Positions 30,121 through 42,244 of a stretch of DNA of 48,118 nucleotides are shown here, piece by piece. The stretch is from an uncultured Fluviicola sp. (lineage in GTDB: Bacteria; Bacteroidota; Bacteroidia; Flavobacteriales_D; Crocinitomicaceae). A program made the position numbers and the translations under genes. The notes below the pieces were generated by a model. The model was not told where the DNA came from and did not search any database. It worked only from the letters and a program-made list of their open reading frames with translations. Positions within the stretch are counted from its first letter, which is position 1; each line of letters begins with the position of its first letter. The stretch lies in contig CAJVYC010000020.1 in NCBI GenBank assembly GCA_913009205.1, positions 1 to 48,118 of the forward strand, read 5' to 3'.

Positions 30121-30492
30121 TTAACGCCTCCCTAAACTTTCAAAAAGCATTGTGGCAGTGGCTGGATTTGTAGCAAGTGGAACATCGTATACATCACAAA
30201 TTCGCATTAACATAAAGATGTCGGGTTCATGAGGATGCTTCTCAAGTGGATCACGAAAGAAGATAACCATATCGCATTTTCCTTCTACTGCTCGTGCTGC
30301 AATTTGCGCATCACCCCCTAAAGGTCCAGACTTAAACTTAACTACATCGAAACCTGCTTTTTCAACTTTCATTCCGGTGGTACCTGTTGAGACTAAAGAA
30401 ATGTTGTTGTTTTTTAAGACCTCTTTTTGCTCATTTAAAAATTGCACCATTTCGGCTTTTTTACCATCATGCGCTATAATTGCTATTTCCAT
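30121..30492 (-). CDS. mgsA: methylglyoxal synthase
   Basis: 123-residue cytoplasmic enzyme that turns dihydroxyacetone phosphate into methylglyoxal and phosphate. Family motifs IAHDGKKAEM (N-terminus), STGTTG (phosphate binding), SGPLGGDAQI with the catalytic Asp, and FRDPLEKHPHEPDI are all intact. It is third in the symporter-isomerase operon, 23 bp after the isomerase gene. The link suggests an overflow bypass that relieves sugar-phosphate build-up during rapid glucose uptake (inference). Confidence 0.95.
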   Translation of the reverse strand: MEIAIIAHDGKKAEMVQFLNEQKEVLKNNNISLVSTGTTGMKVEKAGFDVVKFKSGPLGGDAQIAARAVEGKCDMVIFFRDPLEKHPHEPDIFMLMRICDVYDVPLATNPATATMLFESLGRR

Positions 30493-30515: not shown

Positions 30516-31496
30516 CTAATTTTTTGCTAATTCTGATTTCAAAAAATCTATTATTTGAACCTCCGTAACATCCACTCCTTTTTCCTCTGCCTTCAACAAT
30601 GAAAACCAATCAAGAAGATGAATTAAATACAGCGTTTGCTGAACTAAACCTAACCCAATTGCATCAACGCTTGTTATTGAATCAGTTTGCTTCTCAATAA
30701 TCTTATTCGTTATATCTAAACGCTTTTTATTTGCCTCATTTTCAAGATCACTTCGAATGAACATTACAAATAAATCCTTTGGCTCTGAGGCCCATCCAAC
30801 GATTTCATTGTGGTTCATTTCAGGAACGACATTGAAAAAACTAAGGGCTTTACTGTTTTCATTTATCTGTTGACAAGCACGTAACAAGGTTGGACGAAAA
30901 GATTCTTCGCTATAGAATAAAACTTGTTTTGACTGACTCCTTTTCAGCAATTCACCTGCTAAAGATTCAATTTCAGCTTGTTCATACTGCAATAAATGGA
31001 TTGATTTTACAACCTCTGCCTTAAGAGAAGTGGATACCAAATTGCATTGTTCAAAGATTTCCACAAGCTGAACCAACGAATAGGCCAATGCAGAACGAGG
31101 AGGTAATCCTCCAGGAATTTTAATGCAGTGTTTGCTATTTTCGCGAAGAACATCTTCCAAAATTCCTCCACTGCTAACACCAATAATATTGGCATCCCTG
31201 TCCAAAGCATCTTGAAGTGCAGAAAGCGTCTCTTCTGTATTTCCAGAATAGGAACATACAATAACTAGTGAATCCTTATTGACGTATCCAGGAAGGGTAT
31301 AATTATGACACGTTTCAACTGGAAAATTTCCGTCCAATCGCACCCATTGTTTAATAATCTCTCCTCCAATTCCAGACCCGCCAAGGCCACAAACTACGAC
31401 ATTCTTTATTTCGCTAGGAATGCTTATTGAGTAACCCTTTGAGATCTTAATGCTTTCTAATAATTGGTTCGGGAACTGTTTAATTAAATTTCTCAT
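30516..31496 (-). CDS. bifunctional phosphoglucose/phosphomannose isomerase (SIS type)
   Basis: 326 residues with two SIS domains, like the PGI/PMI enzymes of archaea and some bacteria. Motifs: VVCGLGGSGIGGEI (residues 33-46), CSYSGNTEET (near 82), PPRSALAYS and FFNVVPEMNHNEIVGW with the catalytic Glu and His. It interconverts glucose-6-P or mannose-6-P with fructose-6-P. Encoded 24 bp after the SGLT symporter gene and before mgsA. Confidence 0.9.
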   Translation of the reverse strand: MRNLIKQFPNQLLESIKISKGYSISIPSEIKNVVVCGLGGSGIGGEIIKQWVRLDGNFPVETCHNYTLPGYVNKDSLVIVCSYSGNTEETLSALQDALDRDANIIGVSSGGILEDVLRENSKHCIKIPGGLPPRSALAYSLVQLVEIFEQCNLVSTSLKAEVVKSIHLLQYEQAEIESLAGELLKRSQSKQVLFYSEESFRPTLLRACQQINENSKALSFFNVVPEMNHNEIVGWASEPKDLFVMFIRSDLENEANKKRLDITNKIIEKQTDSITSVDAIGLGLVQQTLYLIHLLDWFSLLKAEEKGVDVTEVQIIDFLKSELAKN

Positions 31497-31520: not shown

Positions 31521-33173
31521 TTATTTCCAGAAAAGTGCATAAAGTGCAACTAGACATAGTATTATGGCGAACGCTCCAATGTTAAATCCGCGAGACGTAT
31601 TAAAGGTGGCGGAATTAATTTCGATTCCTTTTTCATCATCAGCACCTTTGTTTTGAAGGAGACTTACGATAGCAATCACTGTCATTGAAAGAAGCGTTGT
31701 TATTCCCATTTGATGTAAGAATGGCAAATCGACGAACAAGGAACTATCAATCCAACCTTTCGGTCCAATTTTAAAGTACATTGCTATTGGAATAGAGCTC
31801 AACACCCCAACAATTGCCGCTCGACTCGTCGCCTTTTTCCAGATTAAACCAAGCATAAATACAGCTAAAATCCCTGGACTGACTACCCCGGTATATTCCT
31901 GTATAAACTGGAATGCCTGATCAATACCACCCAATAAAGGCGCAATGATTGCTCCCAATAATAATGCACCAGCCGCACTCAATCGTCCTATTCGAACAAG
32001 TTCTTTGTCGCTCGCATTTTTATTAAAATACGGCTTGTAAATATCCATTGTAAAAATGGTCGAAGTTGAATTCAACATCGAGGCCAGAGACGATACAATT
32101 GCAGCAGTAAGAGCAGCAAAAGCTAATCCTTTTAGACCTACAGGAAGAATTTGCAACAACCAAGGATATGATTTATCCGGACTATCAATTGTTGGAATAT
32201 TCTGTTGACCAACTTCTCCAAGACTACTCATTACCTCTGGATCATGCGTCATAACATAGGCTGCTATTCCAGGGATCACAACAATCAATGGAATAATTAA
32301 TTTAAGTCCGGCGGCAAGCATGATCCCTTTTTGAGACTCCTTCAATGATTTCGCTGCCAATGTTCGTTGGATGATATACTGATTGAATCCCCAGTAATAT
32401 AAATTAGCAACCCACATCCCACCTACTAAAACGGCAATTCCAGGCAAGTTTGAGTATTCAGGATTCGATTCATCTAGAATCATCGCAAATCGGTCTGGAG
32501 CTTCGTGGTAAATTTTGGTTAACCCAGCAAAAAAACCTTCTCCACCAGAAACGGCATTGAGCGCGAGATAAGTTGTCAGCAATCCACCAAAGACCAAGAA
32601 AACAACTTGAACAACATCCGTCCAAGCAACTGCAGACAAACCACCGTACAATGAATACGAAGCAGCAAAAAGTGAAAGACCAATAACACCATAAATCATT
32701 GGGATCCCCATAATTGTTTCAAGAGCCAAAGAACCTAAATATAAAACCGATGCAATATTTACAAAGACATATAGCGAAATCCAAAAGACAGCAAGGATCG
32801 TTTTTAACTTCTCTGAAAATCGTTTCGCAACAAATTCTGGAATCGTGTAAAGTCCCTTTTCAATGAAAATGGGCAGAAAATATTTCCCGACAATTAGAAG
32901 TGTCAATGCTGCCATCCACTCATAAGAAGCAATAGCAAGCCCAACTTTATAACCTGAGCCTGACATTCCAATAAATTGCTCGGCGGAAATATTAGCAGCT
33001 ATCAAAGAAGCTCCTACTGCCCACCAAGGCAATGATTTACTAGCCAAAAAATAATCTTCGGCACTTTTAACTTCTCCCTTTTTTGTGCGAGAAACCCACA
33101 GTCCTATCCCTAATATTAAACATGCGTACAATGCAAAAACGAGGTAGTCAATAAATTCAAATTGATTATTCAT
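31521..33173 (-). CDS. SGLT-like sodium/sugar symporter (SSS family)
   Basis: 550 residues, about 14 membrane segments, sodium:solute symporter (SLC5) fold. SGLT-like segments include SAEDYFLASKSLPWWAVGASLIAANISAEQFIGMSGSGY (shown in part: AANISAEQFIGMSGSG), GGLSAVAWTDVVQ and WGFNQYIIQRTLAAKS. Context (glucosidase, kinase, isomerase, zwf operon) makes glucose or a related hexose the likely substrate. First gene of a symporter-isomerase-mgsA operon, with two operator candidates upstream at 33280 and 33451. Confidence 0.92.
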   Translation of the reverse strand: MNNQFEFIDYLVFALYACLILGIGLWVSRTKKGEVKSAEDYFLASKSLPWWAVGASLIAANISAEQFIGMSGSGYKVGLAIASYEWMAALTLLIVGKYFLPIFIEKGLYTIPEFVAKRFSEKLKTILAVFWISLYVFVNIASVLYLGSLALETIMGIPMIYGVIGLSLFAASYSLYGGLSAVAWTDVVQVVFLVFGGLLTTYLALNAVSGGEGFFAGLTKIYHEAPDRFAMILDESNPEYSNLPGIAVLVGGMWVANLYYWGFNQYIIQRTLAAKSLKESQKGIMLAAGLKLIIPLIVVIPGIAAYVMTHDPEVMSSLGEVGQQNIPTIDSPDKSYPWLLQILPVGLKGLAFAALTAAIVSSLASMLNSTSTIFTMDIYKPYFNKNASDKELVRIGRLSAAGALLLGAIIAPLLGGIDQAFQFIQEYTGVVSPGILAVFMLGLIWKKATSRAAIVGVLSSIPIAMYFKIGPKGWIDSSLFVDLPFLHQMGITTLLSMTVIAIVSLLQNKGADDEKGIEINSATFNTSRGFNIGAFAIILCLVALYALFWK

Positions 33174-33279: not shown

Positions 33280-33300
33280 TTATTGTACAAGATACCATAA
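33280..33300. promoter_or_regulatory. operator candidate A of the sugar regulon
   Basis: TTATTGTA-CAAGA-TACCATAA: two 8-base half-sites in inverted order with a 5-base spacer, 7 of 8 positions symmetric. It lies 107 bp upstream of the symporter ATG. Same geometry as sites at 33451 and 37681. Confidence 0.6.
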
Positions 33301-33450
33301 CTAAAATGTGGAATGTTCTTGAAAAACACCATGTTTGAAATGGCTCACTAACGATTGTAACTTGTGATACATATTCAAAAAGAATCATTTAGTCCTTAAT
33401 TGTTTTCGCGTATCTTTCTTGTTAATTAGAGATTTAAGCTAACAATTGTA

Positions 33451-33471
33451 TTATTTTATAAAATACCATAA
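33451..33471. promoter_or_regulatory. operator candidate B of the sugar regulon
   Basis: TTATTTTA-TAAAA-TACCATAA, same 8-5-8 layout; the right half is identical to site A, the left half matches the inverse at 6 of 8 positions. Confidence 0.5.
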
Positions 33472-33529
33472 CATGGTTAATTGAATGAAACTAACGTTTT
33501 ATAAAATAGGACTCAGGACTTAATTTCCT

Positions 33530-33613
33530 TTGTTGGCTCTGCTTTTCATGCATTCATCTTATGCACAAGCCAATAAAGTTGAGATCGTTAAAATTTACAT
33601 TTTGAAGGTGTAA
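33530..33613 (+). pseudogene. possible remnant of an exported protein gene (signal peptide only)
   Basis: The plus-strand frame encodes LALLFMHSSYAQANKVEIVK, which looks like the end of a Sec signal with an AXA-type cleavage site and the first mature residues. It stops at 33611-33613, inside the 3' end of the convergent regulator gene. No ordinary protein follows. Operator B lies about 60 bp upstream, as expected if a regulated gene once started here. May also be chance. Confidence 0.3.
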
Positions 33614-34293
33614 TTTTCTGTTTTTACAAGCTCCTCATAGCTGTCGTTATCAAACATGTAAAGATTCGCTGGCCTGTGCTTAACATTTTTTTGTTTCACG
33701 TGCAAGTTAACGAGTGGAATTGACTTTATTTTCTTTCTGAAATTCGCCTTATCCATATTTGTGTCAAACGTGTAATCAAAAAGTTGCTGCATTTCGTTGA
33801 GCGCAAATTTCTCTGGAAGTAAATCGAAGCAAACAGGTTCACTTTTCAATTTATGCTTTAAAATTTCATAGGTTGAAGCTAATATCTCATTGTGATCAAA
33901 AGCCAACTTCCCAATTTCGTTGATTGGAACCCATCTCAATTCATCTGCCCAAGAAGCCGCTTTCGCTTGAATGTCGTCTATTTGTACCAAGGCGAAATAA
34001 GCGTTGGTAATAACGCGCCCTTGCGGGTGACGGTCTGGTTTTCCAAACGTACGCCCTTGATGCAAAAGAACTCCTTCTAGACTTGTCAATTCTGTTAGAA
34101 TTCTTGTAGCCGCGTCTGGCAAATCTTCTTCCGGATACAATAGATCTCCAGGAATGGCCCATTCACCCATATACGGCTCCATCGCACGCTTAATAAGCAA
34201 TACTTTTAATTGGCCATCTTGGAATCCAAAAATGATACAATCTAAAGAGAATGAATACGAAAAAAACTTATCAAACTTAATTTTATACCCCAT
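33595..34293 (-). CDS. NUDIX-type transcriptional regulator (NrtR/AraR-like)
   Basis: 232 residues: an N-terminal NUDIX-fold domain (residues about 12-140) and a C-terminal winged-helix region of about 80 residues. The Nudix box is degenerate (GDLLYPEEDLPDAATRILTELT lacks the REXXEE core; shown in part as AATRILTELT), so it is a ligand sensor rather than a hydrolase. Proteins of this layout in Bacteroidota, such as AraR of Bacteroides, regulate sugar genes. It sits inside the glucose/glucoside locus, so it is the best candidate to bind the 8-5-8 inverted repeats. Effector, possibly a sugar or sugar phosphate, is unknown. Confidence 0.85.
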   Translation of the reverse strand: MGYKIKFDKFFSYSFSLDCIIFGFQDGQLKVLLIKRAMEPYMGEWAIPGDLLYPEEDLPDAATRILTELTSLEGVLLHQGRTFGKPDRHPQGRVITNAYFALVQIDDIQAKAASWADELRWVPINEIGKLAFDHNEILASTYEILKHKLKSEPVCFDLLPEKFALNEMQQLFDYTFDTNMDKANFRKKIKSIPLVNLHVKQKNVKHRPANLYMFDNDSYEELVKTENYTFKM

Positions 34294-34396
34294 TCAAAAT
34301 TATTTTTTTTGTGAAACTCGATATTTACAGGAGTTAAAACAATACCATAATTGCGGTATTTTAAATCCTGTAAATACCCCATTCAAAACTATTTTA
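34285..34396. repeat. 22-bp direct repeats flanking a long hairpin at the regulator start
   Basis: ATACCCCATTCAAAA-n-TATTTT occurs at 34285-34306 and again at 34374-34395 with a single mismatch. The first copy covers the regulator start codon and its first codons, the second the end of the glucosidase gene. Between them lies the hairpin at 34324-34374. Looks like a duplication of the regulator's 5' end or the footprint of a small insertion. Confidence 0.6.
34324..34374. promoter_or_regulatory. hairpin between glucosidase and regulator genes
   Basis: Perfect 9-bp arms TTTACAGGA (34324-34332) and TCCTGTAAA (34366-34374) enclose a second inverted pair, AATACC and GGTATT. The inner part includes TACCATAA directly followed by TTGCGGTA, half-sites like those of the regulon operators but back to back. 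It may be a terminator for the glucosidase gene, an autoregulatory operator of the regulator, or both. Confidence 0.5.
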
Positions 34397-36674
34397 ATTC
34401 AAATTTAGTTAATAATTCCCCAATAGAAACTTCGAAGTCTCCTGGTTCAGAAACCCAGTTACCCGACGCGTCAACAAATTGCAAATATTCCTCCGATAGA
34501 ACGAATTTAACTGTTGCCGTCTCCCCTATTTTTATAGCTACTTTATCAAATCCCTTCAATGATTTCCCTGTTGGAATAACTGAAGCGAAAAGGTCAGAGA
34601 CGTACAATTGAACAATCTCCTTTGTGTCCATCTTTCCTGTGTTTGTTACATCCACTTCGATAATTAGTGAATCAGATCCTGAAATCGATTCTGAACTTAA
34701 ACGCAAGTTTGAATATTCAACGGTACTATAACCCAATCCAAAACCAAAGTCCCATTGTGGGTTGTAAGCTTTAAAATGATTTGATTTAGAACGTGCAACG
34801 CTTCTTGGGTGATCATAAAATTCTATCACACCGTCGTATTTTGGATACGTATATGGTAAATTACCACTAAAGTTTTCTTCGCCAAACAGTAGCTTTACTA
34901 GAGCATCTGCTCCGTAATCGCCTGGCAAATAAGCTTGAACAATTCCGTCCGCACCATCAACGATATCGCGAATAACTCTTGGTCTTCCTTCTACCATAAT
35001 TAATACCACCGGTTTCCCCGTTGCATATGCAGCTTTGGCAAGTTCCAATTGTTGTGAATCTAGATTTAACGATCTAATATCTCCGGGCTTTTCAGTACTC
35101 GGATATTCTCCAAGGCAAAGGACAATGACATCACTTTTACCAGCTTTCGTTTTGAAATCTTCCATTTCGACCAGTCGCGTTGCTTCGAAGTCTTTATCGA
35201 GATACAACTCCGCGCCTTGAGCAAACGAACAATTTTCAGCGCCCAACTTCTCAGTGAATGCTTCTCGTATCGTTTTGGCTCCAACCGTGTTAAAATTAGT
35301 ATTTGCGCCCTGCCAAGTATGAGTCCATGCACCGTTTAAGAAAATTAGATTATCAGAAGTTGGTCCAGCAATCAACACCTTAGAAGAAGATGAAAGTGGA
35401 AGTACACCCCCTTCATTTTTCAATAGCGTAATTGACTCTAAAGCGGATTCTAGTGCAATTGCTTTGAATTTATCACTTCCAAAATCAGGGTATTTCTTCA
35501 ATTGATTCATTTTTTTATCAAAAAGACCTCCCATCATTTTTACGCGAAGAATACGTCGAACCGCATCGTCAAGTCTTTCATTTGTGACATCTCCATTTTC
35601 AACAGCCTTTATCAAAAGGCTACAATACTCTTTGTAATGCGGATTGTATGGAACCATGCTCATATCAACGCCAGCATTAATAGCACTAATAATTGCTTGA
35701 TAATTATCTTCCGCAGTTTGATGCACATTGTTCAGAAAGATAAAGTCTTCCCAATCAGAAACCGCAAATCCTTGGAATCCCCAATCTTCCTTGAGTGTTT
35801 TTGTAATTAAATTATAGTTTATATGTCCTGGAATTCCGTTGACCGCACCACTATTAATCATCACAGTCAATGCTCCTTCATCGACAGCTGCTTTAAAAGA
35901 TGGTAAATACAATTCTTTCATGTATTTCTCTGGAATCCATGCAGGCGTTCGATCACGGCCACTAGTTGGATTACTGTATCCGACAAAATGCTTCATACAT
36001 GCAATTACATGTTTTGAGCCGATTCCTCCTTTTCCTTGGTATCCACAAATAATCGCTTTTCCCATTTCTGAAACTAAGAATGGATCTTCTCCTAACGTCT
36101 CAAAGTTTCGTGACCATAACGGCTGCCTTCCTAGATCGAGCACAGGAGAGAAGTTCCAATGAATTCCAGAAGCTCTAGTTTCGTAGGCCGTTACTTCACC
36201 GAATCGCATTGCTATTGAAGGGTTCCAAGTTGCAGCCAATCCAATTTCTTGAGGAAACAAGGTTCCTCCAACTGTATAGTTTACGCCATGAATAGCATCA
36301 ATTCCATAAATAATTGGAGCTTTAACTTCTCCATTTTTAAAAGGCGCATGAACTTGGCTGATTACATTGTCCCACATCTCTAAATCAAACGTATGCCAGC
36401 TGACATTTAGAATTGAACCAATTCCATATTCGTTAATTGCTTCCTTGAGCTTAACCGGATCAATTTGTCCTGGAGCTTCAACCTTTCCATCTTTATCTCT
36501 TACAAATAAAGCGTCCAATGTGATTTGACAAGTCTGCCCTACTTTCTCTTTTACGGACATTGACGAAATAATTTCTGTAATTCGATCTTCAATCACTGGA
36601 TCGGATTTCACTTGAGCAAAGGCTGTAAAACTAAATACAATTAGAAGTACAGCTATAAAATTTATTTTCGGCAT
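34389..36674 (-). CDS. glycoside hydrolase family 3 beta-glucosidase (BglX-like)
   Basis: 761 residues with Sec signal (AVLLIVFSFTAFAQ), hence periplasmic or surface. GH3 layout: catalytic domain with the nucleophile Asp in GFAVSDWEDF, KHF and GRDRTPA motifs, then the C-terminal alpha/beta sandwich (ITLLKNEGGVLPL) and a fibronectin-III-like domain near the end. It should release glucose from beta-glucosides and so feed the symporter and kinase of this locus. ATG at 36674 begins the signal; a TTG at 36680 is less likely. No T9SS sorting domain. Confidence 0.93.
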   Translation of the reverse strand: MPKINFIAVLLIVFSFTAFAQVKSDPVIEDRITEIISSMSVKEKVGQTCQITLDALFVRDKDGKVEAPGQIDPVKLKEAINEYGIGSILNVSWHTFDLEMWDNVISQVHAPFKNGEVKAPIIYGIDAIHGVNYTVGGTLFPQEIGLAATWNPSIAMRFGEVTAYETRASGIHWNFSPVLDLGRQPLWSRNFETLGEDPFLVSEMGKAIICGYQGKGGIGSKHVIACMKHFVGYSNPTSGRDRTPAWIPEKYMKELYLPSFKAAVDEGALTVMINSGAVNGIPGHINYNLITKTLKEDWGFQGFAVSDWEDFIFLNNVHQTAEDNYQAIISAINAGVDMSMVPYNPHYKEYCSLLIKAVENGDVTNERLDDAVRRILRVKMMGGLFDKKMNQLKKYPDFGSDKFKAIALESALESITLLKNEGGVLPLSSSSKVLIAGPTSDNLIFLNGAWTHTWQGANTNFNTVGAKTIREAFTEKLGAENCSFAQGAELYLDKDFEATRLVEMEDFKTKAGKSDVIVLCLGEYPSTEKPGDIRSLNLDSQQLELAKAAYATGKPVVLIMVEGRPRVIRDIVDGADGIVQAYLPGDYGADALVKLLFGEENFSGNLPYTYPKYDGVIEFYDHPRSVARSKSNHFKAYNPQWDFGFGLGYSTVEYSNLRLSSESISGSDSLIIEVDVTNTGKMDTKEIVQLYVSDLFASVIPTGKSLKGFDKVAIKIGETATVKFVLSEEYLQFVDASGNWVSEPGDFEVSIGELLTKFELK

Positions 36675-36743
36675 AGTCAATAATTAGTATGGATTGTATA
36701 TAGAAGTCACCGCCGTATAAACGAGCAGATGCAAGAATAAAAA

Positions 36744-37631
36744 TTAATTCAATTGTCTTTTATTTTCAGTAGTAACTGCGCTTGCGACAAAACTTTGTTG
36801 CTTCAAATGGTATTTCACAAGCCTGTCCAATGGTCTGCGAATAATTACACCAATTTGGATCTCATTCTTGGCGCAAACAGCCTTAAGTTCATCCTGCAAC
36901 AAACTTGCAATTGACCCAACGAAGTTAACTTTAATCTTCTTGTAATCATCGTAACACTTAACATGTATGTCGATAAATTCTTGGAAATTCTTTTCAATTA
37001 ACGCTTGAGCATAACTCAATTTTTTGTGACGAATAAGAACTGGCATAACAGATGAAATAAAAACATTCGCATTTGGTTTCATGTATACACTTTCGTTAAT
37101 TACCGCTTTTGACATTCCCATTTGCGTCAGTTCCTTAGCCATAGGCTCGGGAAGTTTGTGGTATAAAAAATCGGCAAGGATTCTTTTTCCGAAATGACAT
37201 CCACCTCCTTCATCACCAAGTATATAGCTCAATGCAGGAACAACTTCACTTACATTTTCGCCATCAAAATAGCAAGAGTTCGAACCTGTTCCAAGGATTC
37301 CTGCAATTAATGGCTTCCCCTCATAGCAAGCATATGCTGATGCGGCCAAATCATGATTAACGTATACTTCTGCCCTTGTAAAAAACGCTTTCAGTGCACC
37401 TTCTATAATGGCATTCATCTCCAGCGAGGAACAACCAGCGCCATAAAAATAAATTTTCCTAATCTCTGATTTGATCAGATCTAATTCAAGATGATCGTTT
37501 AATTCGATTAAAATATCCTCTCGTGAATGATAGAATGGATTAAAGCCCTTTGTGCTATACACAGCTTCTTTACCATCGTTTACTAACATCCAATCGGCCT
37601 TTGTAGATCCACTTTCGACAACTAAAATCAT
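36744..37631 (-). CDS. BadF/BadG-type sugar kinase (GlcNAc kinase or glucokinase-like)
   Basis: 295-residue ASKHA-fold kinase. Phosphate loop 1 ESGSTKADW (residues 6-14), phosphate loop 2 GILGTGSNSCYF (near 112), and GDEGGGCHFGK. Bacteroidota proteins of this type are usually called N-acetylglucosamine kinase, but the divergent zwf-pgl-edd-eda operon and the glucosidase next door suggest glucose as substrate (inference). A TATATTTG box (37664-37657) lies 25 bp upstream and an operator candidate overlaps its -33 region. Confidence 0.85.
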   Translation of the reverse strand: MILVVESGSTKADWMLVNDGKEAVYSTKGFNPFYHSREDILIELNDHLELDLIKSEIRKIYFYGAGCSSLEMNAIIEGALKAFFTRAEVYVNHDLAASAYACYEGKPLIAGILGTGSNSCYFDGENVSEVVPALSYILGDEGGGCHFGKRILADFLYHKLPEPMAKELTQMGMSKAVINESVYMKPNANVFISSVMPVLIRHKKLSYAQALIEKNFQEFIDIHVKCYDDYKKIKVNFVGSIASLLQDELKAVCAKNEIQIGVIIRRPLDRLVKYHLKQQSFVASAVTTENKRQLN

Positions 37632-37656
37632 GAATTTATAAAATGTTGAATTTAGT

Positions 37657-37664
37657 CAAATATA
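37657..37664 (-). promoter_or_regulatory. -7 box TATATTTG of the kinase gene
   Basis: Minus-strand TATATTTG fits TAnnTTTG, ending 25 bp before the kinase ATG. The region about 20 bp upstream, where the -33 element belongs, is occupied by operator candidate D. Confidence 0.55.
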
Positions 37665-37680
37665 ATAAAAAAAGATTTTC

Positions 37681-37701
37681 TTATGGTACTATTTACAAAA
37701 A
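37681..37701. promoter_or_regulatory. operator candidate D between kinase and zwf
   Basis: TTATGGTA-CTATT-TACAAAAA, the same 8-5-8 layout; its left half is the exact inverse of TACCATAA of sites A and B, its right half matches at 6 of 8. It lies between two divergent -7 boxes and covers the -33 regions of both, an ideal place for a shared repressor site. Confidence 0.6.
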
Positions 37702-37706
37702 GTACT

Positions 37707-37714
37707 TAAATTTG
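37707..37714 (+). promoter_or_regulatory. -7 box TAAATTTG of the zwf operon
   Basis: TAAATTTG fits TAnnTTTG and ends 23 bp before the zwf ATG at 37738. Confidence 0.55.
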
Positions 37715-37737: not shown

Positions 37738-39201
37738 ATGAGTTTCCGACAATCTATTCCAAACGAAATAACACCATTTAATCTAGTAATATTTGGTGGT
37801 GACGGTGATCTCTCTAAACGCAAAATCATCCCGGCTGTATTCCATCGATTTGCAGACAAACAGATCAAGGTAGACTTTACAATTAGATGTATTTCAAGGT
37901 CTCTGAGCGACGAAAAAGCATTTAAAAAAATGCTTAAGGAATTCATTCAACTCGATTTAAAAGATAAGGACAATGATAAAGTAATCGATGATTTCTTGAA
38001 ACGCGTTGGGCTTATGACGATTGGAAAGAATGACACCGAATCATACAGCGAACTAAAAGCAGACCTTGATAAAACAGAAGAATATCAGAACGTTTATTAT
38101 TTCTCGGTTCCTTCAGGAGCGTTCTCTGAAATCTGCAATACACTGAAGGATTCAAAACTAATTAATGCAAAAAGCAAAGTTGTTTTGGAAAAACCATTGG
38201 GGCATGATTTAAAATCAAGCAGAGCGATAAATGATATTATTTCGGCCGCTTTTAAAGAGGAACAAATATTTAGAATAGATCATTACCTTGGCAAAGAGAC
38301 GGTTCAAAACTTAATGGTCTTGCGTTTTGCAAATCATTTGTTTGAGCGCGCCTGGAATGCAGAAAATATTAAAGACATACAAATTACGGTAGCAGAAAGT
38401 TTAGGCGTGGAAAAGCGTGCAGGATATTACGATAATACTGGTGCCCTGCTTGACATGATGCAAAACCATTTACTGCAACTACTCTGCCTTATAGCAATGG
38501 AGCCCCCGTCAAGTTTAAATCCAGATGCTATTCGAAATGAGAAAGTAAAGGTCCTTCAATCACTTCGTCTTTTTGACAAAGAATCGATTAAAAAGAATGT
38601 GGTTCGCGGTCAATATACGAGAGGTGCAAATGATGGACAGAAATTAAATTCGTATCTTGAAGATATTAAGCAGTACAATTCTGAAACGGAAACTTTTGTT
38701 GCTATAAAAGCACATATTGATAATTGGCGGTGGAAAAACACTCCGATTTATTTAAGAACGGGAAAGCGCATGAAAAGACGCTATTCGGATATTGTAATTA
38801 ACTTCAAGGAGCTTCCGCATAATATTTTTCCAGAATCAAAACACCCCCTTCAAAACAAGTTAATTATTCGCTTGCAACCTGAAGAGCGCATTGAATTGGT
38901 TCAATTGAGTAAAATTCCAGGACCAGGTGGATATCGTTTCAAACCGATCGCGCTCAAACTGGACTTTATAGATTCATTTCAAGACCGCATGCCTGGTGCA
39001 TACGAACGCTTGATAATTGATGTAATTCGTGGCAATCAGACCTTGTTTATGCGTCATGATGAACTAGAAGCTGCATGGATATGGATTGAATCAATAACGA
39101 AGTATATGAAAAAAGAAACTCCGCTTTCATTGTACGAATCTGGGACTTGGGGACCTGGAGACGAAATTCTTGATGAAAACACAAAATGGCAAACAAAATA
39201 A
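37738..39201 (+). CDS. zwf: glucose-6-phosphate dehydrogenase
   Basis: 487 residues, normal length. N-terminal nucleotide-binding motif FGGDGDLSKRK (residues about 18-28; the more usual form is GASGDLxxRK), substrate motif RIDHYLGKE near residue 179, and the cofactor-region NHLLQLLCLIAMEPP. It oxidises glucose-6-P to 6-phosphogluconolactone, the entry of the Entner-Doudoroff route here. First gene of zwf-pgl-edd-eda; pgl follows after 2 bp. Confidence 0.97.
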   Translation: MSFRQSIPNEITPFNLVIFGGDGDLSKRKIIPAVFHRFADKQIKVDFTIRCISRSLSDEKAFKKMLKEFIQLDLKDKDNDKVIDDFLKRVGLMTIGKNDTESYSELKADLDKTEEYQNVYYFSVPSGAFSEICNTLKDSKLINAKSKVVLEKPLGHDLKSSRAINDIISAAFKEEQIFRIDHYLGKETVQNLMVLRFANHLFERAWNAENIKDIQITVAESLGVEKRAGYYDNTGALLDMMQNHLLQLLCLIAMEPPSSLNPDAIRNEKVKVLQSLRLFDKESIKKNVVRGQYTRGANDGQKLNSYLEDIKQYNSETETFVAIKAHIDNWRWKNTPIYLRTGKRMKRRYSDIVINFKELPHNIFPESKHPLQNKLIIRLQPEERIELVQLSKIPGPGGYRFKPIALKLDFIDSFQDRMPGAYERLIIDVIRGNQTLFMRHDELEAAWIWIESITKYMKKETPLSLYESGTWGPGDEILDENTKWQTK

Positions 39202-39203
39202 AA

Positions 39204-39878
39204 ATGAACATAAACGTATTCCAAAAAGAAGGTAAGCTAATTGATGCCGTTGTTGGTTCTCTAATTTCAGATTTAGAGCAATCTATACAATCCTATGGAA
39301 CAGCGAACTTACTTCTTTCAGGCGGAAGTACGCCAGGCCCGATTTATAAGGCTCTGGATCAAAAATGTGCATTTCTTAAGGATCTTAAAATCGGCTTAGT
39401 AGATGAACGCTTTGTGGCTCCCAATATTGAGTTTAGCAACGAGCGGTTAATCAAATCTTGTTTTACGAAGTTGCCAAGTGAACGCTACGAAATTGAAGGA
39501 ATGGTTCACGATATCGAAGACGAAGTCAATAATATTGAACTTCTAAAAACAAAGTACCACGATTTCATTGAAAGAACGGACGTTGTAATTCTAGGAATGG
39601 GACCTGACGGACATACGGCTTCCATTTTCCCGAATGATCTTCAATCCGATAAGGTACTGTCCAGCAATGAAAAGAGCGTTTTTAGCACCAAAGCTCCTAA
39701 TCATCCTGAGCAGAGAATAACGTGCAGTCTTGACATGATTACAAATGCATCATCAATATACCTGATCATTTCAGGAGATGAAAAATTAAACGTTCTTAAA
39801 AGCAATGACCTTTCGTTACCCATTCACGTTGTTCTCAAAAAGAGAAACGACATTAAAATCTATTTTCTAGCAAAATGA
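39204..39878 (+). CDS. pgl: 6-phosphogluconolactonase (DevB/SOL type)
   Basis: About 224 residues. Motifs LLLSGGSTPGPIYKAL (sugar phosphate binding), VDERFV, and LGMGPDGHTASIFPND with the catalytic His are intact. Hydrolyses the lactone made by Zwf. ATG at 39204 just after the zwf stop is preferred; an ATG at 39186 inside zwf would add six residues. The stop overlaps the edd ATG (ATGA at 39875). Confidence 0.93.
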   Translation: MNINVFQKEGKLIDAVVGSLISDLEQSIQSYGTANLLLSGGSTPGPIYKALDQKCAFLKDLKIGLVDERFVAPNIEFSNERLIKSCFTKLPSERYEIEGMVHDIEDEVNNIELLKTKYHDFIERTDVVILGMGPDGHTASIFPNDLQSDKVLSSNEKSVFSTKAPNHPEQRITCSLDMITNASSIYLIISGDEKLNVLKSNDLSLPIHVVLKKRNDIKIYFLAK

Positions 39879-41671
39879 TACATTCGAAAATAAAAGAAGT
39901 TACAGATCGAATTATTGAAAGAAGTAAGGCTTCTAGAGATTCTTATTTGGAAAATACACGTATTAATTTTGACAAAGTTCGCGGCAGAAACCACTTGAGT
40001 TGTGGAAATCTGGCCCATGCATTTGCAGGTTGCGCCCCCTCCGATAAATCAACGATTGCAGAAGGAATCGAGCCGAATATTGGAATTGTTACAGCATATA
40101 ACGACATGCTTTCGGCACACAAGCCTTACGAGACGTATCCAAATGAAATACGCAAATACGCCAACAATTTTAACGCAACCGTTCAAGTTGCAGGCGGAAC
40201 TCCGGCCATGTGCGATGGTGTTACACAAGGACAACCGGGAATGGACCTTTCACTTTTAAGTCGTGATGTTATCGCACTATCCTCTGCTATAGCCCTTTCT
40301 CACGATATGTTTGACGGAGTTATGAATATGGGGATTTGCGACAAAATTGTCCCTGGATTGCTGATTGGAAACTTGAGCTTTGGTCATTTGCACTCACTGT
40401 TCGTTCCGGCAGGACCGATGCCTACAGGTATTTCAAACGAGGAAAAAGCAAGAATTCGTCAGGAATTTGCGGAAGGAAAAATTGGAAGAAAAGAATTGCT
40501 AAAAGGTGAGTCTGACTCTTACCACTCTCCAGGAACTTGCACGTTCTACGGAACTGCGAACAGCAATCAAATGTTGATGGAAATCATGGGACTGCAATTG
40601 CCGGGTTCTAGTTTTGTTAATCCTGATACGGACATGCGAAGAGCTATGAATAAAGAGGCGGTTCGTATTCTCATTCAGAACATTAGAAATAAAGATTATG
40701 CTAGCACGATTGGTCAAATTGTAGATGAAAAATGTATAGTAAACGGCATCATTGGATTATTAGCTACAGGTGGTTCAACGAATCACACCCTGCACATAGT
40801 AGCAATGGCAAAGGCCGCTGGAATTATTATCAACTGGGATGATTTTTCTGATCTTTCAGAAGCCATACCGTCTATTGCACGTGTTTATCCAAATGGAGCA
40901 GCGGATATTAATCACTTCCATGCTTCGGGTGGAATGGCCTTTGTGATCAAAACATTACTGGATGGAAATCTTCTTCACGAAGACGTAAATACAATTGTTG
41001 GAACTGGATTATACAAATATACGCTTGAACCAAAATTGAAAGACGGCACAATCCATTATGAGGACGGTCCAACAGCATCTTTGAACGAATCGATTATTCG
41101 ATCCGCTCAAGATCCATTTCAGAAGACAGGTGGTTTGAGAGTTTTGAAAGGAAATCTTGGTGTTTCAGTTATCAAAACCTCTTCTGTTGCTGAAGAACAT
41201 AGAATTGTTGAAGCTGAAGCGATTGTTTTCGACGATCAAGACGATTTAATAACAGCATTTCAAGCAGGTGACTTAGATCGCGATTTTATCGCTGTCATTC
41301 CCTTTCAAGGTCCGAAACAAAAAGGTATGCCTGAATTGCATAAACTCACTCCTTCTTTGTCAATTCTACAAAAGAAAGGATACAAGGTTGCGTTGGTTAC
41401 AGACGGAAGAATGTCTGGTGCTTCTGGAAAAGTTCCCGCAGCAATTCATTTAAATCCCGAAGCGGCTCAGGGCGGGGTAATTGGTTTAATTCGGACTGGA
41501 GATCGATTGATTTTAGACGCCGAAAAAGGAACTTTGAATTGCTTGGAAGAAAATCTAGAAGCACGCCCAGCGCGGCATGTTGAGTACAACGACTTGTCAC
41601 ATGGAAGACAATTATTTAGAAATCTTCGTGCCCTTATTTCATCAAGTGAGGAAGGAGCAGGTATAATTTAA
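39875..41671 (+). CDS. edd: 6-phosphogluconate dehydratase
   Basis: 598 residues, IlvD/Edd family with a [4Fe-4S] cluster. Cluster cysteines in GGTPAMCDGVTQGQ, MGICDKIVPG and SPGTCTFYGTANSNQ; the last, with TANSNQM, is typical of Edd rather than IlvD. VTDGRMSGASGKVPAAIH lies near the C-terminus. Makes KDPG from 6-phosphogluconate. ATGA overlap with pgl and 6-bp gap to eda. Its cluster could be supplied by the suf system in this window. Confidence 0.97.
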   Translation: MIHSKIKEVTDRIIERSKASRDSYLENTRINFDKVRGRNHLSCGNLAHAFAGCAPSDKSTIAEGIEPNIGIVTAYNDMLSAHKPYETYPNEIRKYANNFNATVQVAGGTPAMCDGVTQGQPGMDLSLLSRDVIALSSAIALSHDMFDGVMNMGICDKIVPGLLIGNLSFGHLHSLFVPAGPMPTGISNEEKARIRQEFAEGKIGRKELLKGESDSYHSPGTCTFYGTANSNQMLMEIMGLQLPGSSFVNPDTDMRRAMNKEAVRILIQNIRNKDYASTIGQIVDEKCIVNGIIGLLATGGSTNHTLHIVAMAKAAGIIINWDDFSDLSEAIPSIARVYPNGAADINHFHASGGMAFVIKTLLDGNLLHEDVNTIVGTGLYKYTLEPKLKDGTIHYEDGPTASLNESIIRSAQDPFQKTGGLRVLKGNLGVSVIKTSSVAEEHRIVEAEAIVFDDQDDLITAFQAGDLDRDFIAVIPFQGPKQKGMPELHKLTPSLSILQKKGYKVALVTDGRMSGASGKVPAAIHLNPEAAQGGVIGLIRTGDRLILDAEKGTLNCLEENLEARPARHVEYNDLSHGRQLFRNLRALISSSEEGAGII

Positions 41672-41677
41672 GACATT

Positions 41678-42244
41678 ATGTTACAGAACAATATAGAGGC
41701 GCTTTTAAAAGCAAACCCACTGATTCCAGTTGTTACAATTGAAAGTTTAGATGAGGTAGATGTGGTTTATGAAAAGTTAAGCTCACAAGGAATCAATTGT
41801 GTAGAGATTACACTGCGAACAGAAATCGCTTGGGAAGCAATTGCACTTTTTAAAGAAAAATACGGTCCCGCTTTTAAAGTTGGAGTTGGGACAATAATTT
41901 CTCCAGATGATATTCTCAAATGCGTAAAATTAAAGGTTGACTTTATGGTAAGCCCTGGACTCACCTCATCGATGATTCAACAATTTGATTTTAGCGGAAT
42001 TCCTTTTCTCCCTGGCGTTTCAACACCAAGTGAAATCATCAGAGGAATTGACATGGGATGGCGTGTATTTAAATTCTTCCCTGCTGATTTATTCGGTGGA
42101 GCAAAAGCCCTAAAAGTTTACGGCAACATTTTCAAAGACGTTTCCTTTTGCCCAACTGGAGGAATTAATAAAGACAATTATCAAGAATATTTGGATTTAA
42201 AGAATGTCATGGCTGTTGGTGGATCATGGTTAACAAGCGACTAA
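41678..42244 (+). CDS. eda: KDPG aldolase, C-terminally short
   Basis: 188 residues, class I aldolase that cleaves KDPG to pyruvate and glyceraldehyde-3-P. The catalytic Glu is in VEITLRTE (near residue 45) and the Schiff-base Lys in RVFKFFPAD (near 129); the phosphate loop PTGGI and AVGGSW follow. It ends eight residues or so after PTGGI-linked strands, at VGGSWLTSD, while usual enzymes run 20-25 residues further as a final helix. I could not find that helix in another frame. The active site is complete, so it may still work. Confidence 0.92.
   Translation: MLQNNIEALLKANPLIPVVTIESLDEVDVVYEKLSSQGINCVEITLRTEIAWEAIALFKEKYGPAFKVGVGTIISPDDILKCVKLKVDFMVSPGLTSSMIQQFDFSGIPFLPGVSTPSEIIRGIDMGWRVFKFFPADLFGGAKALKVYGNIFKDVSFCPTGGINKDNYQEYLDLKNVMAVGGSWLTSD

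Follow-up and report, generated by a model that had tools for sequence, protein, structure and literature searches.

A 48,118-nucleotide stretch of DNA from an uncultured Fluviicola sp. of the family Crocinitomicaceae (GenBank assembly GCA_913009205.1, contig CAJVYC010000020.1; this whole stretch is hereafter the window) carries a locus in which a glucose symporter operon, a sugar kinase operon and an Entner-Doudoroff operon share a 21-bp inverted repeat. We propose, with a probability of roughly 0.78, that the three copies of this repeat are operators of a Nudix-fold repressor encoded in the middle of the locus (33595-34293, reverse strand), acting by the mechanism and on the wide regulon set out below. 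Comparison across related genomes supports the operator itself, its conservation, its overlap with the zwf and kinase promoters and its link to one clade of regulators.

Operator sites and their conservation

The first-pass annotation of the window had described three 21-bp inverted-repeat sites of the form TTATGGTA-N5-TACCATAA, and these are present and are the only matches at three or fewer mismatches in the 48 kb: predicted operator 1 at 33280-33300 (TTATTGTACAAGATACCATAA, 1 mismatch), 106 bp from the symporter start and before the symporter-isomerase-mgsA operon; predicted operator 2 at 33451-33471 (TTATTTTATAAAATACCATAA, 2 mismatches), which lies 277 bp upstream of the symporter start and follows the regulator gene at a distance of 123 bp; and predicted operator 3 at 37681-37701 (TTATGGTACTATTTACAAAAA, 2 mismatches), between the divergent kinase and zwf promoters (no strand is assigned to any of them). 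The sites stood, but the letters of the shared half-site did not: 0 of the 3 match the pattern exactly, and the fifth half-site position is mostly T, not G, in relatives. The family consensus is aCTTATTGTA-N5-TACAATAAGt, that is, half-sites better written as TTATTGTA-N5-TACAATAA plus an outer AC/GT.

Across 100 dinucleotide shuffles of the window, the mean was 0.33 matches at three or fewer mismatches, and three matches were never reached. In the source genome (2.82 Mb), four places lie within two mismatches of the window motif, three of them being the window sites; at three or fewer mismatches, 26 places were found against 43 for a reversed control, which is background, and a refined matrix was therefore needed for genome scans. 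The loose count is what would favour the sites being chance A+T-rich palindromes, but the window shuffles, the conservation in relatives, the information content of the sites and the ranks that a refined model gives them in their own genome (below) all tell against chance, which we rejected on the shuffles and on conservation across relatives and to which we assign a negligible probability.

Of 240 family genomes searched, 147 hold a relative of the regulator (at E 1e-25) and 99, the source genome included, a member of its close clade (≥57% identity; hand count of the listing). Conservation before orthologous genes was assessed on 36 clade-A loci, 35 of them from other genomes, and the site was found to be kept behind the regulator gene, before the symporter and before zwf. 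With spacer 5 and three or fewer mismatches, 33 of the 35 regions of ~300 bp that follow the regulator gene contain the window motif, as do the stretches before the symporter in all 6 other genomes compared and those before zwf in 8 of 11 other regulator-bearing genomes; all 11 of those examined have a zwf site at two or fewer mismatches to TTATNGTA-N5-TACNATAA. In the same upstream and downstream regions, spacers 1-4 and 6-9 gave 0 or 1 match and shuffled half-sites at most 1. Among the aligned sites of relatives, information is high within the site and low in the flanks, which diverge. One relative (G122) has its symporter 9.4 kb from the regulator, with two sites at the same 171-bp spacing as in the window. 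In two marine loci (L011 and L025), the regulator gene lies beside zwf and encodes the helix DKANFRKK, and sites with 1 mismatch precede zwf. Near regulator homologues from outside the family (L010, L012-L016 and L018), no site at two or fewer mismatches was found, except one at 9915 of L012, directly before the regulator; outside the family, the regulon is thus a candidate only.

Site presence was also compared with that of regulator orthologues, and the sites follow this regulator clade. Sixteen regulator-bearing genomes hold 92 places at one or fewer mismatches (36 for the reversed pattern), as against 28 (70 reversed) in 16 genomes without the clade (all sums by hand; Fisher P = 1.3e-10), two of which (G125 and G130) carry a paralogue only. 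Exact sites number at least 13 in the former set and 0 in the latter, and genome-wide the refined motif lies above random density. All 13 paralogue loci (L135-L147) lack an intergenic site at two or fewer mismatches (one such match in L144 is intragenic), no site lies within 150 bp of the second zwf of G126, which stands beside a paralogue, and none lies before zwf in G135, which has no regulator. Of 34 genus genomes, 12 have the regulator and 7 the symporter, and every symporter-bearing genome is one of those 12 (P = 1.5e-4). In the paralogue loci, the paralogous Nudix regulators stand beside a kinase gene, with the recognition helix DKRNFRRK in those aligned; GH13 and GH65 genes adjoin the paralogue in L135 (as tested), and zwf-pgl-edd-eda adjoins it in L145.

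A different binder would leave the Nudix gene a mere neighbour: a HexR-like repressor of the RpiR family that senses 2-keto-3-deoxy-6-phosphogluconate (KDPG). The core of the family consensus, TTGT-N7-ACAA, corresponds to the Pseudomonas HexR consensus, TTGT-N7-8-ACAA, and zwf, edd, eda, gap and glucokinase are shared targets (PMC5489143, in excerpt), but the sites track the Nudix clade, counter to such a binder. Moreover, a profile search for the helix-turn-helix domain HTH_6 (PF01418) found nothing in the source genome, and across 18 regulator-bearing genomes no match reached the cut-off (the sole match, in G059, is weak, at 23.8 bits versus a cut-off of 28.3), whereas 12 of 14 control genomes match, 8 of them above cut-off. 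The search of regulator-bearing genomes led us to reject a HexR/RpiR binder, which we judge very improbable.

The regulator

The annotation had placed a NUDIX-type regulator in the middle of the locus, and profile searches agree: the gene at 33595-34293 (reverse strand) encodes a degenerate Nudix domain (PF00293) followed by a winged helix of the NrtR/AraR type (PF21906, E 1e-16; PF19368, E 1e-10), and its product matches the Bacteroides arabinose regulator BtAraR (PDB 5bs6) at E 5e-47. Its Nudix box, GDLLYPEEDLPDAATRILTELTSLE, is without the REUXEE core, stated in the excerpt of PMC4666351 to be the catalytic Nudix motif; that is, the catalytic box is broken. An AlphaFold model built from 14 sequences (predicted local distance difference test score 86) has apo BtAraR (5bs6) as its best PDB fold (template-modelling (TM) score 0.82, 229 aligned columns). 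With its Nudix-like N-terminal domain and winged helix, the protein belongs to the NrtR/AraR superfamily of Nudix-fold regulators, members of which bind as dimers to a 21-bp palindrome; such a palindrome is present here and is linked to the regulator clade. In a tree of 48 rows, which took 25 of the 36 clade-A loci (the others were omitted for size), the regulator clade forms one group (support 100/99), and its kinship with L011 and L025 is weakly supported (82/83).

All 25 clade rows share a DNA-reading helix, [DN]KANFRKK (DKRNFRKR in BtAraR), and have Ala (Ala183) where AraR has its intercalating Arg180. The AraR DNA-contact residues Lys179, Arg180, Asn181, Lys184, Lys204 and Arg205 correspond to K, A, N, K, H and R here; the excerpt of PMC4666351 describes these six as absolutely conserved among AraR orthologues, and by its DNA contacts the protein does not appear to be an orthologue of AraR (BT0354). 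The sugar-contacting residues of AraR (Arg34, Arg86 and His131) are kept as R36, R88 and H134 in 25 of 25 rows. By the AraR-SoNrtR equivalences, the ADP-ribose contacts of SoNrtR (Arg98, Lys76 and Asn43) are replaced by Gln91, Leu69 and Met38, and the NCBIfam NtrR model scores 136 bits against a cut-off of 400; the lost ADP-ribose contacts are stronger evidence than the kept sugar residues. In AraR, Phe49 packs against C5 of arabinose (PMC4666351, in excerpt); its equivalent is Leu51, and all 25 rows have Leu there, a substitution that might accommodate the C6 of a hexose.

Overlap with the zwf and kinase promoters

Boxes of the flavobacterial -7 form TAnnTTTG lie on either side of operator 3: that of zwf (TAAATTTG, 37707-37714, forward strand) starts at the sixth base behind the operator, and that of the kinase operon (TATATTTG, 37657-37664) is on the reverse strand. 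With the -7 box of flavobacteria placed at -12 to -5, the position given in the excerpt of PMC9723704, operator 3 extends over roughly -38 to -18 of zwf and -49 to -29 of the kinase, so that the overlap with the -33 region of both promoters that had been suggested follows from the box positions. In 11 of 12 zwf promoters, the window's included, TAnnTTTG has its first base 2-6 bp past the operator; as background, the box is present in 3.4% of 27-bp stretches taken at random. With the -7 box directly behind it, the operator lies over the -33 region, a repressor position.

Predicted regulon

Genome scans used a model of 30 sites chosen from 43 of other genomes, none from the source genome or its nearest relative; in the source genome (G000), a first pass yielded 2977 candidates, and 150 of these received a score. 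The zwf/kinase site and the symporter site ranked third and fourth, and the site at 33451 is not among the best places listed by the model. Rank 1 is C31:10865, 46 bp before a secreted protein without an assigned role, and C1:33005, at rank 2, falls at the start of another NrtR-type gene, behind which lies a glyceraldehyde-3-phosphate dehydrogenase (GAPDH) gene. C26:13458, at rank 5, has a spacer of 6 between perfect 10-bp arms and immediately precedes the probable start of SusC, part of a SusC-SusD-PKD-GH16 run. At rank 6, C26:20137 precedes the probable start of the secreted, CBM48-like gene that comes next (names in both cases via BLAST to Pfam-annotated relatives). Ranks 7 and 8 are an intragenic place (C11:33445) and one before a secreted protein (C8:54374). 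Spacer 6 was rejected as a general variant, with 14 forward and 21 reversed places in 14 genomes (hand sum) and hence no excess; the single N6 site before SusC (core G000:C26:13461-13482) is kept as a probable operator.

Among relatives, sites lie before GAPDH in G126, G140, G132 and G143 (in G054 the GAPDH site falls inside a called frame), before SusC in G126 and G140, before a GH16 gene in G069 and also before MFS sugar transporters. E1-type dehydrogenase subunits, which we read as probable pyruvate dehydrogenase, follow sites in G059 (PF00676) and G140 (PF02779/PF02780). The genes identified behind sites are mostly sugar, secreted and central-carbon genes, and none is a named NAD (nicotinamide adenine dinucleotide) gene, the annotation being partial. 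The regulon of glucosidase, SGLT uptake and Entner-Doudoroff pathway that the first-pass annotation had named is thus upheld by comparison, but not its extent, which appears wider, taking in SusC-SusD-GH16, GAPDH and, in two relatives, E1 subunits.

Two further kinds of gene were observed behind sites. A GH2-like TIM-barrel gene of ~450 amino acids has an operator in front in three loci (L242 1995-6899, L237 6443-7897 and L241 2389-3777), with 0 mismatches in L242 and L237, and leads an operon without assigned function; the 616- and 562-amino-acid proteins that follow it in L242 have no Pfam match at E 1e-6, and gene runs of similar size occur in many clade loci. The second NrtR-type gene of the source genome (L165 9009-10827; G000:C1:33008-34826) is very diverged, lies between a strong operator and GAPDH, has no Nudix match and has Val at the Lys179 position.

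Proposed mechanism and its weighing

From these comparisons we infer direct binding, repression and release by a sugar, as follows. Without signal, a regulator dimer would sit on TTATTGTA-N5-TACAATAA over the -33 region of the kinase-glucosidase-regulator operon and of the zwf-pgl-edd-eda operon, blocking RNA polymerase at both; from two sites, it would also hold down the symporter-isomerase-mgsA operon. On beta-glucan hydrolysis and glucose entry, sugar would occupy the Nudix pocket, the winged helices would turn and the repressor would leave the DNA. The regulon would be pathway-wide, from beta-glucan capture to glyceraldehyde-3-phosphate, including the SusC-SusD-GH16 locus and the GAPDH operon. 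Free D-glucose is our best guess, and the most likely candidate, for the effector.

Several observations weigh against this reading. Operator 2 has a weak left half and scores 10.3 bits, against 19.4 for operator 3 and 18.2 for operator 1. Behind the regulator gene, 2 of the 35 regions are without a site (G124 and G143; in G143 a site is located further on, before a GH16 gene and the symporter), and the conservation counts are not independent, the loci being related by descent. One genome (G136, 83% complete) has no regulator at threshold, yet its zwf is preceded by a site with 2 mismatches. In relatives, several sites with 1 mismatch are intragenic or precede genes without an evident sugar link. 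None of 7 symporter sites and 1 of the 34 that follow the regulator gene have TAnnTTTG within the next 20 bp, and a repressor position is therefore supported at zwf and the kinase only; repression at the symporter and regulator-side sites is what we infer by extension.

The missing box at the symporter sites would also suit a regulator that activates some of its targets, such as the symporter, with sites 106 and 277 bp upstream; against this, BtAraR is a DNA-binding apo-repressor released by L-arabinose (PMC4666351, in excerpt), and we think activation improbable. The signal may differ as well. Paralogues too keep the equivalents of Arg34, Arg86 and His131, making these residues weak evidence for a free-sugar ligand, and the excerpt of PMC4666351 states that SoNrtR, which binds ADP-ribose, has the AraR sugar residues in equivalent spatial positions except for Arg34, to which its Arg41 corresponds. 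The regulator could thus bind the sites and respond to a phosphorylated intermediate (glucose-6-phosphate, 6-phosphogluconate or KDPG), for which KDPG control of Entner-Doudoroff genes by HexR is a precedent (PMC5489143, in excerpt), or to a nucleotide such as ADP-ribose, which NrtR proteins sense (PMC4666351, in excerpt); SoNrtR has two of AraR's three sugar residues. The replaced SoNrtR contacts and the low NtrR score make ADP-ribose an unlikely fit, and we consider such a signal on the whole unlikely, though a serious contender.

Genes of the locus

On the reverse strand, the regulator gene is followed upstream by a GH3 beta-glucosidase gene (34389-36680; the best NCBIfam model, exo-beta-1,3/1,6-glucosidase, is below cut-off) and a gene for a sugar kinase of the GlcNAc/MurNAc-kinase-like type (36744-37631; PDB 1zxo, E 3e-49; 8oqk, 9e-46; 8ow7, 2e-45). 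Pfam and NCBIfam profile searches gave no match for the kinase, and its context suggests glucose as substrate. The symporter operon, on the same strand, comprises a vSGLT-like sodium/glucose symporter (31521-33173; PDB 2xq2, E 5e-236; PF00474), a bifunctional phosphoglucose/phosphomannose isomerase (30516-31496; TIGR02128 above cut-off) and methylglyoxal synthase, mgsA (30121-30492; TIGR00160 above cut-off). The Entner-Doudoroff operon (37738-42244, forward strand) consists of zwf (37738-39201; TIGR00871), pgl (39186-39878; TIGR01198), edd (39875-41671; TIGR01196) and eda (41678-42244; TIGR01182), all four above their NCBIfam cut-offs. The mgsA gene accompanies the predicted glucose regulon: in 7 of 7 symporter-bearing genus genomes it stands behind the symporter and isomerase, and in G069 (L246 3552-3986) it stands behind an operator site of its own.

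Between the glucosidase and regulator genes, 34285-34395 is an insert with 18-nucleotide inverted arms and, on its flanks, direct repeats of 22 bp (spacing 89). A 66-bp part of it is found again, at 98%, at G000:C9:87597-87662, next to what we read as a Rep-like frame, and the insert looks like a small mobile element. The two genes are separated by just 4-5 bp in L116-L119. Whether the regulator gene has an operator of its own in the gap 34294-34388 was considered; the half-site there sits inside a hairpin that resembles an inserted repeat, so no such operator was counted. At 33485-33613 (forward strand), 13 bp behind the operator at 33451, a signal-peptide-like frame broken by one stop enters the 3' end of the regulator gene and is perhaps a relic of a secreted-protein gene; G143 has a GH16-like secreted gene at the corresponding place, divergent from the symporter, with no kinship to this frame implied.

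Comparison with known systems

BtAraR (BT0354; PDB 5BS6/5DDG/5DEQ) is like the regulator in its degenerate Nudix domain and winged helix (at the TM score given above), its Arg/Arg/His sugar site, its 21-bp semipalindromic operator, the two sites before its main operon and the presence of polysaccharide utilization locus genes among its targets. In its site, GTGT-N7-ACAC (PMC4666351, in excerpt), GT-N7-AC is equally far from the centre as in the operator described here; the geometry is unchanged but the letters differ (GTGT as against TTGT/TGGT), as do three residues (Arg180 to Ala183, Lys204 to His206 and Phe49 to Leu51) and the genes concerned, arabinose genes there and, adjoining the regulator here, glucose and beta-glucan genes. 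XylR of Bacteroides (BT0791, NrtR family, xylose; PMC3878776, in excerpt) is likewise a Nudix-type sugar regulator of Bacteroidota, but serves another pathway (compared by description only). The NrtR regulators of NAD metabolism (Shewanella, Synechocystis) share family and fold; here, by contrast, the ADP-ribose contacts are lost, the NtrR cut-off is missed and the identified neighbours are sugar genes, so the protein does not appear to be an NrtR in the strict sense.

Searches of open-licence PubMed Central papers on Nudix/NrtR sugar regulators and laminarin loci brought up no description of such a regulon. New here are the corrected consensus, its family-wide conservation, the paralogue and absence controls, the wider regulon, the link to Ala in place of Arg and the parallel with HexR. 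To our knowledge, how polysaccharide capture is tied to central carbon flow in non-gut Bacteroidota is poorly known, and regulator, operator and targets are offered as one testable set for these bacteria. The alanine provides a natural test of how an AraR fold reads DNA without the intercalating arginine.

HexR of Proteobacteria is a parallel in function, and the regulon proposed here would hold the corresponding place. In Pseudomonas, HexR binds TTGT-N7-8-ACAA on zwf, edd and gap promoters and responds to KDPG (PMC5489143, in excerpt), and the kinds of gene (zwf, edd, eda, gap and glucokinase) and the core TTGT-N7-ACAA recur here; HexR, however, is an HTH_6 and SIS protein unrelated to the regulator, and outer-membrane polysaccharide uptake is not named among its targets in the excerpt of PMC5489143. 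Both cores are short and A+T-rich, and their likeness may therefore be due to chance. We read the comparison as suggesting that an unrelated protein, whose operator converged on that of HexR, has taken HexR's place. Tentatively, and at somewhat less than even odds, we further suggest that one free-glucose-sensing Nudix repressor, re-aimed by loss of AraR's intercalating arginine, has replaced HexR as the master regulator of glucose catabolism across much of the family, reaching HexR's core independently and extending its reach to outer-membrane beta-glucan uptake, secreted GH16, GAPDH and, in some species, pyruvate dehydrogenase. The locus is an apparent case of an unrelated fold standing in HexR's place with the same operator core.

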